Positions 17,551 through 21,912 of a stretch of DNA of 34,791 bases are shown one piece after another. Each line of letters opens with the position of its first letter. Position 1 is the first letter of the stretch. The notes under the pieces were generated by a model that ran no database searches, was not told where the DNA came from, and was given only the letters and a program-made list of their open reading frames with translations. Both the position numbers and the translations under genes were made by a program. The stretch comes from an uncultured Chitinophagales bacterium. Lineage in GTDB: Bacteria; Bacteroidota; Bacteroidia; Chitinophagales; UBA2359. The stretch spans positions 1 through 34,791 of the forward strand of contig CALFBW010000067.1 of the NCBI GenBank assembly GCA_937951415.1, given 5' to 3'.

Positions 17551-18771
17551 ATGAAACACAAAATACTACTTGCCTTTTTCTTCCTTGTAGGACTGAATTT
17601 TTACTTTTACGTTCCAACTAGTCACTCTTTCAGTACAACCCCGCCCACAAATCGCACAGGAGCTCCTGGACAAAATAACTGTAGCAGTTGCCACGGAACG
17701 GGATCTACATTGACCGTCGACTTTGACTTTGACAACGGAAACAGCAATAGTTACATCCCGGGAAACACTTATGACATTAATCTAAGCCTTTCAGCCATTG
17801 GGAAACAGCGTTTCGGTTTTTCAATGCTAAGCTGGGATGATGCTAATAACTGGGTCGGTAGTTGGGCTTCTGGTGCCAACAATCAAGTATATAACAATGG
17901 CAAATACATTGGTCATGAAAATGCTCCTAATGGTCAAGCGGATTCCTTTAACTATGACTTTCAATGGACTGCTCCAGCATCTGGTACAGGAACTGTTAAT
18001 TTTTATGCGGGTTGCGTCGCCGCCAATGGCAACGGTAATACCAATGGAGATGAAGCCAACACCTTTGCTTTTAGCATACCCGAAGCGGCTCCCACACTCC
18101 AAACCGTTGAACTGGATTTGCATTTACTTCTAGAAGGTCCGTATCAATCTGGCGGGGTGATGAGTACAGCTGGAAATGGGGAGATACCCAATAGTCATCC
18201 TTTCTCCATGACTCCTTATAGCGAAAACCCGAGTAGTGTTAGCAATATTCCTGCAAACGCTGTGGATTGGGTTTTAATCGAATTGAGAAGCGGGCAAGCG
18301 AATAGCACTGCTCCCCGTGGGACTTTAACAGAACTAACCGCCCTTGGCTTTCTACTTTCTGATGGTTCAGTGATTGGAACTGATGGGCAAGCCCCCAGTT
18401 TTGCCGTGCTACCCAGCAGCAGCTATTACATTGCTGTTCGTCAACGCAACCACTTGGACGTGATGTCAGCAAGCAAGCTGGCCTTTGACAACGATCCCGT
18501 GAGTTACGATTTCCGCATGAGTGAATCTATGGCCTTCGGTAATCAACAGTTAAAAGTTATGAATGACGGCTTCTTTGCCTTACATGCAGGTGACTACAAT
18601 CAAGATCAAACGATTCAAACCACCGATTACGACGAATGGCAGTTTGATCCAGCCATTATTAATAGCTACGCAGCAACGGATGGCAACCTAGATGGGGTAG
18701 TGTCAGTGGTCGATTTTGACCGTTGGTTCTTAAATAAAGCGAAGATCGGTAGCCACGAATTGAATTATTAA
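17551..18771 (+). CDS. secreted CxxCH (choice-of-anchor V-like) protein with dockerin-like C-terminus
   Basis: 406 residues. The N-terminal signal peptide (about 1-26) is followed by TGAPGQNNCSSCHGTGS with a single CxxCH heme-c-type motif at 44-48, then a beta-rich, Asn/Gly-rich domain up to about 170. This arrangement resembles the Bacteroidota choice-of-anchor V / reeler-like domain. A middle beta domain spans about 185-345. The C-terminus (about 345-400) has two calcium-loop-like repeats, GDYNQDQTIQTTDYDEW and TDGNLDGVVSVVDFDRW, like type I dockerins. No type IX sorting domain is visible. Heme attachment is possible but not shown; a surface or extracellular role is inferred. A lone gene, followed by a 229-nt non-coding gap. 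Confidence 0.75.
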   Translation: MKHKILLAFFFLVGLNFYFYVPTSHSFSTTPPTNRTGAPGQNNCSSCHGTGSTLTVDFDFDNGNSNSYIPGNTYDINLSLSAIGKQRFGFSMLSWDDANNWVGSWASGANNQVYNNGKYIGHENAPNGQADSFNYDFQWTAPASGTGTVNFYAGCVAANGNGNTNGDEANTFAFSIPEAAPTLQTVELDLHLLLEGPYQSGGVMSTAGNGEIPNSHPFSMTPYSENPSSVSNIPANAVDWVLIELRSGQANSTAPRGTLTELTALGFLLSDGSVIGTDGQAPSFAVLPSSSYYIAVRQRNHLDVMSASKLAFDNDPVSYDFRMSESMAFGNQQLKVMNDGFFALHAGDYNQDQTIQTTDYDEWQFDPAIINSYAATDGNLDGVVSVVDFDRWFLNKAKIGSHELNY

Positions 18772-18921: not shown

Positions 18922-18942
18922 AAGGCCTAGAATAATGGCCTT
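18922..18942 (+). promoter_or_regulatory. dyad AAGGCC-N9-GGCCTT upstream of the DinB-NRDE-ATP-grasp operon
   Basis: Six-base inverted repeat with a 9-base spacer, located where the -33 region of the operon promoter would lie (the -7 box starts 15 nt further on). The position suits a repressor or activator site. The rest of the 18,772-19,000 gap shows only a twice-repeated GCATTAGG and a 10-base palindrome CTGCTAGCAG. Confidence 0.35.
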
Positions 18943-18956
18943 GGCCTATTTTGGCG

Positions 18957-18964
18957 TAACTTTG
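18957..18964 (+). promoter_or_regulatory. -7 box of the DinB-NRDE-ATP-grasp operon
   Basis: TAACTTTG followed by C, an exact match to TAnnTTTG, 36 nt before the first ATG. A TTG lies 13 nt upstream, closer than the common 17-23 nt spacing, so the -33 box is less certain. Confidence 0.6.
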
Positions 18965-19000
18965 CCCTCCGACGAGTAAGCTGAAAAGCAAAAAACGGGA

Positions 19001-19510
19001 ATGAATCGAGAACTTATACAAGTGGTTGAAGACTTATTTCAATCATTGAGAGGAGCCATGAGCTCCATTACAAAAACTGAGTTCTCGCAGCCTATGGAGC
19101 TGTATTCAGGTTCAACGCTGGGACAACATACCCGGCATTTCGTAGAGTTTTTCCAGTGTTTGTTACAACAAAGTCCCGCTGGCGTGGTTAATTACGATAA
19201 GAGGGAGCGTAATAAATGCATTGAGGAAGATCCTAAAGTAGCTTTCGAAGCTATGGAAGAAATCGTTAATGCTTTAGGTTCTCGGGGCGATGATTTAGCT
19301 TTAAAGCTAGAATCGAACTACGGTTCAGGTTTACTGCAAATTTCGACAACATTCGAACGGGAGCTCGTGTTCAACATCGAGCATACTGTTCATCATATGG
19401 CGTTGCTAAAAATTGGGCTCAAACATTTGCATCCGGACGTGCAAATTGCAGAAGGGTTTGGGGTAGCTTGCTCCACCCAGCGTCACAAAGAAGAAATATG
19501 TGTACGGTAA
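19001..19510 (+). CDS. DinB-family metal-binding protein
   Basis: 169 residues, a predicted four-helix bundle. The DinB metal triad is present: His43 in TLGQHTRHFVEF, and His128 with His132 in NIEHTVHHMALL. The segment NYDKRERNKCIEEDP (64-78) and the ending IAEGFGVACST are typical of the Bacteroidota branch of this family. Relatives include thiol transferases that use bacillithiol or mycothiol and maleylpyruvate isomerases, but the substrate here is unknown. It is the first gene of an operon; its final codons overlap the NRDE gene start (ATGTGTACGGTAA), indicating translational coupling. Confidence 0.85.
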   Translation: MNRELIQVVEDLFQSLRGAMSSITKTEFSQPMELYSGSTLGQHTRHFVEFFQCLLQQSPAGVVNYDKRERNKCIEEDPKVAFEAMEEIVNALGSRGDDLALKLESNYGSGLLQISTTFERELVFNIEHTVHHMALLKIGLKHLHPDVQIAEGFGVACSTQRHKEEICVR

Positions 19511-20235
19511 GTTATTTACCATTAGAAGATGGAAGATTCATTATTACCTCGAACAGAGATGAAGCGGTAGCCAGAGCAGCCTCTCCACCTCAAGAGATCG
19601 AGCGAACAAATGGACAGGTTTTGTTGTATCCAGTCGACAGTCAGTCGGGGGGAACATGGATAGGAGCTTCAAACGATGGTCGAATCACTTGCGTACTCAA
19701 CGGAGCTACCGAAAAGCACGAGCGTCAACTTCCCTATGATCGAAGTCGTGGGTCTTTAACTATGTCTTTCTTACGAGGAAACGATGAAATGTTACTTGGA
19801 AACGAGTCCTTGGGGAACATGGAGCCCTTTACACTAATCATGTTTCGTGCTGGAGAGCTTTTCGAACTTCGCTGGAATGGTAAACGAAAGTTTCTCAAGA
19901 AGTTGGATAGAACCAAGCCTTACTTGTGGTCGTCAGTAACACTTTACAATAAGTCGGTTCGTCGTAAGCGAGAAAAGCTATTCCGCATTTGGCAAGAAGA
20001 AAACACTTTCAGCCAGCGCAGCATTTTGCATTTCCATCATTTCGAAGGTTTTGGCGACCCTGAAAACGATTTAGTAATGTCTCGTGATGGAGGCAACTTA
20101 CGTACCTTAAGTATCACTTCTATTTTGTGCGAAGAGGACAAAATGAAAATGACTTATTTGGATCTTATGCAGAACAAGTCGTACATGGAAACGCTGACGC
20201 TGAAAGAACAAAATGCCCCTTTGGAATCGCATTAA
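19498..20235 (+). CDS. NRDE/TANGO2 family protein
   Basis: 245 residues from the ATG at 19498. The frame extends 10 codons upstream, but this start gives MCTVSY, placing Cys at position 2 as in TANGO2 proteins (which begin MC). Removal of Met would leave an N-terminal Cys, as in Ntn-type hydrolases. The family hallmark Asn-Arg-Asp-Glu occurs at 19-22 (ITSNRDEAV), followed by GGTWIGASNDGRITCVLNGA. Eukaryotic TANGO2 has been linked to heme and lipid handling; the bacterial role is unsettled. The gene overlaps dinB-like by 13 nt upstream and the ATP-grasp gene by 23 nt downstream, so the three products are expected together. Confidence 0.88.
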   Translation: MCTVSYLPLEDGRFIITSNRDEAVARAASPPQEIERTNGQVLLYPVDSQSGGTWIGASNDGRITCVLNGATEKHERQLPYDRSRGSLTMSFLRGNDEMLLGNESLGNMEPFTLIMFRAGELFELRWNGKRKFLKKLDRTKPYLWSSVTLYNKSVRRKREKLFRIWQEENTFSQRSILHFHHFEGFGDPENDLVMSRDGGNLRTLSITSILCEEDKMKMTYLDLMQNKSYMETLTLKEQNAPLESH

Positions 20236-21271
20236 AAACAGCAATTTCCTTATTCGTCTTCTTAGTTGGGAATATTGGCCCTTTAGTGTGGTCTACGCTC
20301 CCGTGTTTGCCTATTGGGTTTATCTATCCATAAAGGCTCGGCATTTCCTATTCTTTAGCGCGACAAACCCAGGCATTGATACGGGTGGTTTTTTAGGGGA
20401 GTCCAAAATGGATATTTATTCCTTGATTCCCGAAGAGTGGTATCCCAAAACCGTTTTAGCCAATCCTGCTGACTCAATAAGCAGTTTGAGCGATCGCTTA
20501 ATAAATACAGGTATTGGCTATCCGCTCATTGCCAAGCCCGACATTGGTGAAAGAGGTTTGGCCGTGGAAAAAATCGAAAACGAAGCGGCACTCATCAACT
20601 ACCTACAGCGTTTCCCTAACAACACCATTTTACAAGAGTTTGTCGATTATGCCGATGAAATCTCTGTACTACATTATCGTTTTCCCGATGAAGAAAAGGG
20701 CAACATTTGTTCGATTACGCTGAAAGAATTCCTGAGTATAAGGGGAAATGGAAGTTCAACTTTAGAAGATTTGATCTTAGCAAAGCCACGAGCAAAATTG
20801 CAATACGACAAATTGAAAGTGCAATACCACGATGATTTCTACGAGGTGGTTCCTAAAGGAAAAAAATGGGTCTTGTCTGAAATTGGAAATCATTCGAAGG
20901 GAACCATGTTTTTAGATGGAAACCATCTAAACGACGAGCAATTGGTTGCAACTTTCGATCACATTGCTTCCAAAATCGATGGAGTTTTTTATGCGCGCTA
21001 TGACATAAAAGCCGCATCTTTCGAAGACCTTCGACAAGGCAAAAATTTTTCGATTCTAGAAATAAATGGCGTTAAGTCGGAGCCCGCACACATCTATCAG
21101 CCGGGTTATTCGCTCTTACAGGCTTACCGAGACATCTTTTCGAACTGGGGCATCATCTACGAAATCAGCAAAATCAATCACCAAAAGGGTGTTCCGTATT
21201 TATCTTACAAATATGCTTATCGTCGCCTCAAAGAACTGCGGAACTACCACAAGTCTCTTGTCACTACTTAA
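20213..21271 (+). CDS. membrane-associated ATP-grasp protein
   Basis: 352 residues. The N-terminal part has an aromatic hydrophobic segment (about 19-48, SWEYWPFSVVYAPVFAYWVY) likely to sit in or on the membrane, then NPGIDTGGFLGESK. ATP-grasp features follow: YPLIAKPDIGERGLAVEKI (about 103-121) with the ATP-binding Lys, ILQEFVDYADEISVLHYR as the hinge, and FSILEINGVKSEPAHIYQ (about 279-296) with the magnesium-binding Glu and Asn. The fold resembles D-Ala-D-Ala ligases, joining a carboxylate to an amine or thiol through an acyl phosphate. Substrate unknown. Third gene of the overlapping operon; it ends 20 nt from the convergent PAP2-like gene. Confidence 0.8.
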   Translation: MPLWNRIKNSNFLIRLLSWEYWPFSVVYAPVFAYWVYLSIKARHFLFFSATNPGIDTGGFLGESKMDIYSLIPEEWYPKTVLANPADSISSLSDRLINTGIGYPLIAKPDIGERGLAVEKIENEAALINYLQRFPNNTILQEFVDYADEISVLHYRFPDEEKGNICSITLKEFLSIRGNGSSTLEDLILAKPRAKLQYDKLKVQYHDDFYEVVPKGKKWVLSEIGNHSKGTMFLDGNHLNDEQLVATFDHIASKIDGVFYARYDIKAASFEDLRQGKNFSILEINGVKSEPAHIYQPGYSLLQAYRDIFSNWGIIYEISKINHQKGVPYLSYKYAYRRLKELRNYHKSLVTT

Positions 21272-21291: not shown

Positions 21292-21912
21292 TCAAATTAA
21301 GAAAGCAAATGTTTGACCTATAAAGCCTAACATATAACCCATTAACAGTTCGTTGGGTTGGTGCTCCTGCAATACCAATCGAGCCGTTCCGACTAATCCG
21401 GCAATGAAAATAACTAGCATCAAAACAGGAGCAATCGCTTTAATGCTGACAGTTATCGAAAATACAGCCAAGGAAATCAAAGCACCCATTCCTATGGCGT
21501 GTAAACTAATTTTTATTTGCGCAACATTGACCATGTAAGCGATAAATAAAGAGAAGAAACCCCCAAGCATGATATCACTGGTAATTTCTGGACACTCTAA
21601 TTGCTTGGTCATCAAAAAATAGTTGAATAAAAGAAACAGCATCATGATCAAAATCGGGATGGCTCTTTCCTTGCGGTTGCTCAACTTGAAATCTTTGATG
21701 TAACCTTCTCTTCGAATCACTTCTAGTAAAATCAGGGGCACAATCACCGAATAAATCAAAGTCCACCCGAACAGGTAAACTCCCACTCTCGTTGGTGGCG
21801 CTGGAATGGCGTATGGGTTGCACCACATCAAGTAAACCATTCCGTACAAGGGAACAAAGATGGGATGAAATACATACGATACGATATTGGCAATTGCGCG
21901 CTCTATCTGCAT
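21292..21912 (-). CDS. PAP2-superfamily-like integral membrane protein
   Basis: 206 residues with about six transmembrane segments. The phosphatase motifs seem present in altered form: SNRKERAIP (about 78-86) in place of KX6RP, ISLHAIGMGA (about 134-143) in place of PSGH, and ARLVLQEHQPNE (about 177-188) in place of SRX5HX3D, with Ser to Ala and Asp to Glu. The spacing Arg-x5-His is kept. It may be a divergent lipid phosphatase or an inactive relative. It lies 73 nt downstream of the TSUP permease gene and convergent to the ATP-grasp gene. Confidence 0.6.
   Translation of the reverse strand: MQIERAIANIVSYVFHPIFVPLYGMVYLMWCNPYAIPAPPTRVGVYLFGWTLIYSVIVPLILLEVIRREGYIKDFKLSNRKERAIPILIMMLFLLFNYFLMTKQLECPEITSDIMLGGFFSLFIAYMVNVAQIKISLHAIGMGALISLAVFSITVSIKAIAPVLMLVIFIAGLVGTARLVLQEHQPNELLMGYMLGFIGQTFAFLI

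Follow-up and report, generated by a model that had tools for sequence, protein, structure and literature searches.

Genes for a DinB-fold protein, an NRDE/TANGO2 family protein and an ATP-grasp ligase-like protein are linked far beyond chance, and a functional link among the three is strongly supported across Bacteroidota and Gammaproteobacteria. They lie side by side in a 34,791-nt stretch of DNA from an uncultured Chitinophagales bacterium (the window, meaning the whole stretch that was analysed), where they form the minimal version of a conserved, uncharacterised multi-gene module. We found no description of this gene set in the open-access literature. The ATP-grasp gene is often fused to or located beside an inner-membrane translocator of the DedA/VTT or LysE type, and the module probably carries out envelope-lipid or amino-acid conjugation chemistry.

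Organization of the locus

The three reading frames overlap by 13 and 23 nt, exactly as given in a preliminary description of this DNA (Table 1). The gene directly upstream stops 229 nt before the cluster and the gene 3' of the ATP-grasp gene is on the opposite strand, so that the three genes form a closed cluster. The preliminary description had also proposed a promoter. Its -7 box TAACTTTG, an exact match to TAnnTTTG, and the GGCCttGGCC dyad are both present, but shuffled sequence contains more TAnnTTTG boxes than the window does (32 versus 19), so the box proves nothing; as a promoter element it is not statistically distinctive and only suggestive.

Table 1. Features of the DinB-NRDE-ATP-grasp locus and its flanks, in window coordinates
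Feature	Position	Strand	Remarks
Gene directly 5' of the cluster	17551..18771		secreted-type, 406 residues, weak Reeler-domain match
GGCCttGGCC dyad	18937..18946	+	candidate element from sequence, close to the expected -33 position
Possible Bacteroidota -7 box TAACTTTG	18957..18964	+	36 nt 5' of the DinB ATG
DinB/YfiT-fold gene	19001..19510	+	169 aa
DinB/NRDE reading-frame overlap	19498..19510	+	13 nt
NRDE/TANGO2 family gene	19498..20235	+	245 aa
NRDE/ATP-grasp reading-frame overlap	20213..20235	+	23 nt
ATP-grasp carboxylate-amine ligase-like gene	20213..21271	+	352 aa, conserved N-terminal amphipathic region
Gene convergent with ATP-grasp	21292..21912	-	predicted membrane protein, sub-threshold PAP2 phosphatase match

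Linkage of the three genes in Bacteroidota

We searched 395 Bacteroidota genomes with profiles of the window's ATP-grasp (A1), DinB (A2) and NRDE (A3) proteins, finding the ATP-grasp subfamily in 71 genomes with strong and 2 with weak matches, DinB in 59 and NRDE in 40. With kinship among the 395 genomes ignored, ATP-grasp and DinB occur together in 57 (Fisher p = 1e-52), ATP-grasp and NRDE in 34 (p = 3e-23) and DinB and NRDE in 31 (p = 7e-22); all three are present in 30/395. Most co-present pairs are at most 5 kb apart (51/57, 28/34 and 29/31 genomes, respectively). The preliminary description had taken rarity of such co-occurrence in related genomes as an argument against a joint role, and the opposite is found. 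Protein distances among the three families are also correlated (r = 0.80-0.84, where the highest values from permutations were 0.10-0.15), kinship again ignored.

However, homologues share only about 25-50% identity with the window proteins, and their gene order has been reshuffled repeatedly. Among the best 80 named ATP-grasp loci (ARRANGEMENTS), 28 carry all three families in the stretch retrieved around the gene, 31 DinB, 10 NRDE and 11 neither; DinB and/or NRDE is thus nearby in 69/80, in many different orders. Besides the DinB>NRDE>ATP-grasp order of the window, we observed DinB>ATP-grasp in Fulvivirga; NRDE>ATP-grasp with DinB on the opposite strand in Spirosoma and Larkinella; an NRDE-DinB pair about 4 kb from ATP-grasp in Roseivirga; NRDE divergent from DinB>ATP-grasp in some Saprospiraceae; and ATP-grasp ahead of DinB>NRDE at locus L145. 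The partners are not obligate, as DinB and NRDE are both missing from 10/71 ATP-grasp genomes and DinB is missing from 14/71. In genome G102 (C54:27988-29126), where ATP-grasp was not found, DinB adjoins NRDE, indicating that this pair can stand alone.

Family assignment of the three proteins

The window ATP-grasp protein has no match in Pfam, and its NCBIfam matches are all sub-threshold (16-19 bits for RimK and LysX, with cut-offs of 143-276); a homologue at locus L108 reaches 39 bits against the 850 required for cyanophycin synthetase. Its predicted model is confident (pLDDT 96.5) and returned 433 PDB matches at E<=0.001, the best being cyanophycin synthetase, and the nearest folds (cyanophycin synthetase, GshAB, Ddl, LysX and ArgX) are all amino-acid ligases. 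Six residues are invariant in 86 homologues: Lys108, Glu149, Arg262, Asp264, Glu283 and Asn285. All but Glu149 are nucleotide/metal residues that, like the fold, are shared with RimK, cyanophycin synthetase, LysX, Ddl and GshAB. By its modelled fold and these residues, the protein is assigned to the ATP-grasp superfamily, which bears out the earlier assignment. Nevertheless, it is mostly 11-21% identical to those ligases, with a TM-score to query of at most 0.54, and falls far under every curated cut-off. Unlike RimK-type ligases, it has a unique N-terminal WEYWP...NP...GESK region, and certain lineages have versions of it joined to DedA, LysE or NRDE. The membrane association ascribed to it in the preliminary description is not borne out by the protein alone, whose best 19-residue hydropathy window (1.27) is below the usual transmembrane level, but it gains indirect support from the homologues fused to DedA and LysE domains.

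The NRDE protein matches Pfam TANGO2 (PF05742) at 65.9 bits (8e-18), above the gathering score of 22.6, and its profile finds the TANGO2-family PDB chain 8sv7 (E 0.005). Met1-Cys2, Arg20, Asp21, Arg26, Asn68 and Ser83-Arg84-Gly85 are invariant in 45 homologues; within the NRDE motif, R20 and D21 are conserved in 100%, E22 in 95% and N19 in 73%. The invariance of Met1-Cys2 (45/45) supports the start at 19498. The PF05742 domain, the invariant Cys2 and the R-D of the NRDE motif are shared with human TANGO2 and Shewanella HtpA, from which the window protein differs in its low identity, its placement in a separate subfamily linked with DinB and ATP-grasp, and the absence of a heme context. The TANGO2 crystal structure has a Cys-Ntn amidase fold, the family has been grouped with the cysteine Ntn amidases penicillin acylase, bile-salt hydrolase, acid ceramidase and NAAA, and an amidase/acyltransferase activity of human TANGO2 has been suggested from structure only (PMC13044924).

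The DinB protein is below the gathering scores of Pfam DinB (18.5 bits, cut-off 24.8) and DinB_2 (14.1 bits, cut-off 23), and a PDB sequence search with its profile gave no match. Its predicted model (pLDDT 96.9) has a four-helix DinB/YfiT fold, with 2f22, 1rxq and 3dka as the best Foldseek matches (probability 1.00, TM to query 0.55-0.63). BH3987, YfiT and YjoA are nearest, and thiol-dependent relatives follow lower down, where the neighbours include mycothiol S-transferase, maleylpyruvate isomerase, ClbS and EgtB. It is therefore by modelled fold, not by curated threshold, that we call this protein a DinB. In 68 homologues, His43, Arg45, His46, Glu49, Arg68, Arg120, His128, His131 and His132 are invariant, and His43/His128/His132 make up a candidate metal site. 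The DinB fold given in the preliminary description is supported by the model, and the three histidines that it names are invariant (68/68). Fold and histidine pattern are those of the DinB/YfiT (STL) superfamily of bacillithiol/mycothiol S-transferases, maleylpyruvate isomerase and ClbS, whereas the invariant R45-H46-E49, R68, R120 and H131 and a C-terminal FGVAxST motif are additional.

Fusions and neighbouring genes

A search for fused or reordered versions yielded, besides the many orders described above, two loci from two genera (L117, L118) in which a single reading frame encodes both NRDE and ATP-grasp and lies immediately 3' of DinB. In four Bacteroidota families outside the window's class (f44, f50, f62 and f65), a protein of 800-900 residues begins with an alpha/beta hydrolase, continues with a VTT/DedA domain and ends in ATP-grasp. 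An OlsB-like and/or OlsA-like acyltransferase gene adjoins 14/14 of these loci and DinB is directly upstream in 11/14; the NRDE subfamily (A3 profile) was not found in genomes carrying these fusions. At locus L120, ATP-grasp has an N-terminal LysE-type translocator. Across 122 distinct loci, genes near ATP-grasp include LysE-type (59), YHS (42) and DoxX (31), and OlsF/OlsBA/GlsB-like genes adjoin ATP-grasp in Vibrionaceae, the DedA-fusion families and Saprospiraceae. Such surroundings suggest an association with LysE and DedA translocators of the membrane and, for three of the lineages, with acyltransferases of aminolipid synthesis.

The same gene set extends to Pseudomonadota, where a tblastn search of plasmids returned 28 records. 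Salinivibrio has the order SDR, VTT, ATP-grasp, DinB, NRDE, and Vibrio sp. THAF191d and Photobacterium sp. GJ3 have VTT, ATP-grasp, DinB, NRDE, YHS, DoxX and an OlsF-like gene, the OlsF-like proteins scoring 428 and 409 bits, respectively (cut-off 620). Identity between the Vibrio proteins and their counterparts beside the Bacteroidota genes reaches 52% for YHS and 46% for DoxX. Azospirillum carries a VTT-ATP-grasp fusion, and Paracoccus denitrificans PD1222 carries, clustered but unfused, genes for ATP-grasp, alpha/beta hydrolase and VTT, the parts that are fused in Bacteroidota. In Komagataeibacter, ATP-grasp has no DinB or NRDE nearby, indicating that it can stand alone.

Taken together, co-occurrence, adjacency kept through rearrangement, the fusion of NRDE to ATP-grasp and the recurrence of the set in Gammaproteobacteria strongly support the proposal that the three genes are one functional unit. 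These data also bear on the alternative that the genes share only their regulation, as separate stress or envelope-maintenance genes that are co-expressed with others of that kind (YHS, DoxX, YceI, MsrA/B, Crp). The recurrence of redox-type neighbours and the presence of Crp and other regulators nearby would fit such an arrangement; the NRDE-ATP-grasp fusion, the adjacency of DinB and NRDE in 28/31 genomes and the same core in Gammaproteobacteria argue against it, and we regard it as rather unlikely.

A candidate pathway at the membrane

To account for the module as a whole, we tentatively favor a membrane-surface ligase acting with a Cys-Ntn amide hydrolase, a DinB accessory step and, where present, a translocator. 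At the cytoplasmic membrane face, the ATP-grasp protein would activate a carboxylate as an acyl-phosphate and couple it with an amine, for instance an amino acid; the likeliest site of this reaction would be an acylated lipid of the N-acyl-amino-acid type. NRDE, with its cysteine as N-terminal nucleophile, would act on that compound too, hydrolysing or transferring an N-acyl amide; in lineages without NRDE, the alpha/beta hydrolase may take over this step. DinB, as a metal-site four-helix protein, may contribute an accessory and perhaps thiol-dependent step, and the product would cross the membrane via DedA or LysE where these are present. The lipid branch of this scheme is based on the OlsB/OlsA/OlsF/GlsB-like neighbours in three lineages and on DedA; against it we count the YHS, DoxX and regional MsrA/B neighbours, which fit redox stress better than lipid synthesis. 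The module shares its DedA/VTT domain with UptA-like transporters, but its proteins are below the UptA cut-off. Likewise, the acyltransferases inside the module in three lineages are homologous to those of OlsF/OlsBA/GlsBA aminolipid synthesis, a pathway that, as known, has no ATP-grasp, DinB or NRDE step.

A soluble pathway would use the same proteins differently: ATP-grasp would make a peptide-like or amino-acid conjugate, DinB would use bacillithiol, NRDE would trim the product and a LysE-type exporter would secrete it. The amino-acid and peptide ligases among the ATP-grasp relatives, the thiol-dependent fold neighbours of DinB and the frequency of LysE-type genes are all consistent with this reading, yet both the DedA fusions and the OlsF/OlsBA neighbours favor a lipid, and no LysE was detected in the window genome. 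The gene bshC, which might have spoken for bacillithiol, occurs in 60/60 genomes checked, the window genome (G000) and genomes without the module included. We therefore dropped bacillithiol dependence as a discriminator; a thiol link is possible but not discriminating, and we consider the soluble pathway doubtful.

Heme-related chemistry, which the preliminary description had raised, found no support: there are no heme or cytochrome genes, cytochrome c included, among the conserved neighbours of the ATP-grasp loci, and a heme-handling role of TANGO2 has been contested in recent papers (PMC13044924, PMC12782551). Heme trafficking through the TANGO2-like protein has a precedent in the TANGO2 homologue HtpA of Shewanella, which is reported as a heme trafficker (PMC10470608). 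However, heme contacts were nonspecific in TANGO2 crystallography (PMC13044924), C. elegans work challenges the role (PMC12782551), and an ATP-grasp ligase and aminolipid synthases fit badly with it, making this reading highly improbable.

We also compared the module with the distribution of aminolipid synthases. Family searches of the window genome (86% complete) did not detect OlsB/OlsF/GlsB (PF13444), PF19576, LysE, VTT or YHS, indicating that the DinB-NRDE-ATP-grasp triad can exist without these genes. Across 80 Bacteroidia genomes, a PF13444-type profile found an aminolipid synthase in 18/44 with ATP-grasp and 16/36 without, with no association, and in 0/11 ATP-grasp genomes of family f21. 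These results tell against the aminolipid version of the scheme; we therefore rejected the synthase as a universal partner and kept only a lineage-specific link. Missing OlsB/OlsF does not exclude aminolipids, because another ornithine-lipid route, via a GH3-like enzyme, is known (PMC12493201).

A narrower form of the preferred membrane-surface scheme would have the ATP-grasp protein act as a flavolipin-like lipodipeptide synthase, extending glycine or ornithine lipids by an amino acid at their free carboxylate. The enzyme that adds serine to glycine lipid to give flavolipins is still unknown (PMC10191378), and the aminolipid synthesis genes beside ATP-grasp in the three lineages would suit this activity. 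The lack of such a synthase in the window genome and in 11/11 f21 ATP-grasp genomes, and of a synthase/ATP-grasp association in Bacteroidia, makes it decidedly unlikely.

More broadly, the synthesis of flavolipins and similar amino-acid lipids in Bacteroidota is incompletely known, and the module could hold some of the missing steps. Loss of TANGO2 causes severe metabolic disease in humans, and to our knowledge its biochemical function is unknown and disputed, the proposals being heme, acyl-CoA and a Cys-Ntn hydrolase. The tie of NRDE to ATP-grasp, sometimes in one protein, makes this question testable in culturable bacteria. A speculative extension, on balance unlikely, is an undescribed membrane-lipid conjugation pathway common to Bacteroidota and Gammaproteobacteria: an ATP-grasp enzyme coupled to DedA or LysE would make aminoacyl (dipeptide-type) acyl lipids, and NRDE/TANGO2 proteins would serve as dedicated N-acyl-amide hydrolases or acyltransferases. 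If true, the TANGO2 family would gain a first class of natural substrates.

Lineage-restricted features

A vitamin B5 response has been reported for TANGO2 deficiency, which lends interest to a stand-alone CoaB-like (phosphopantothenate-cysteine ligase) gene that follows ATP-grasp at Spirosomaceae-type loci (L039 8968-9768, L047 8965-9765 and relatives). Its restriction to a few Spirosomaceae loci led us to reject it as a general module member. YHS was likewise rejected as a module-specific marker in Vibrio, as the family sits among unrelated small genes on other plasmids; at L168 and L169 (Vibrio plasmids), related YHS genes lie in same-strand arrays of small unrelated genes, possibly gene-cassette arrays. 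Two genomes carry a second ATP-grasp gene. In genome G348 (L119 6280-9232), the order ATP-grasp, NRDE, ATP-grasp may reflect a sub-functionalised duplication, and in genome G447 a second, LysE-fused ATP-grasp (L120 6229-7929) accompanies the copy fused to NRDE (L117).
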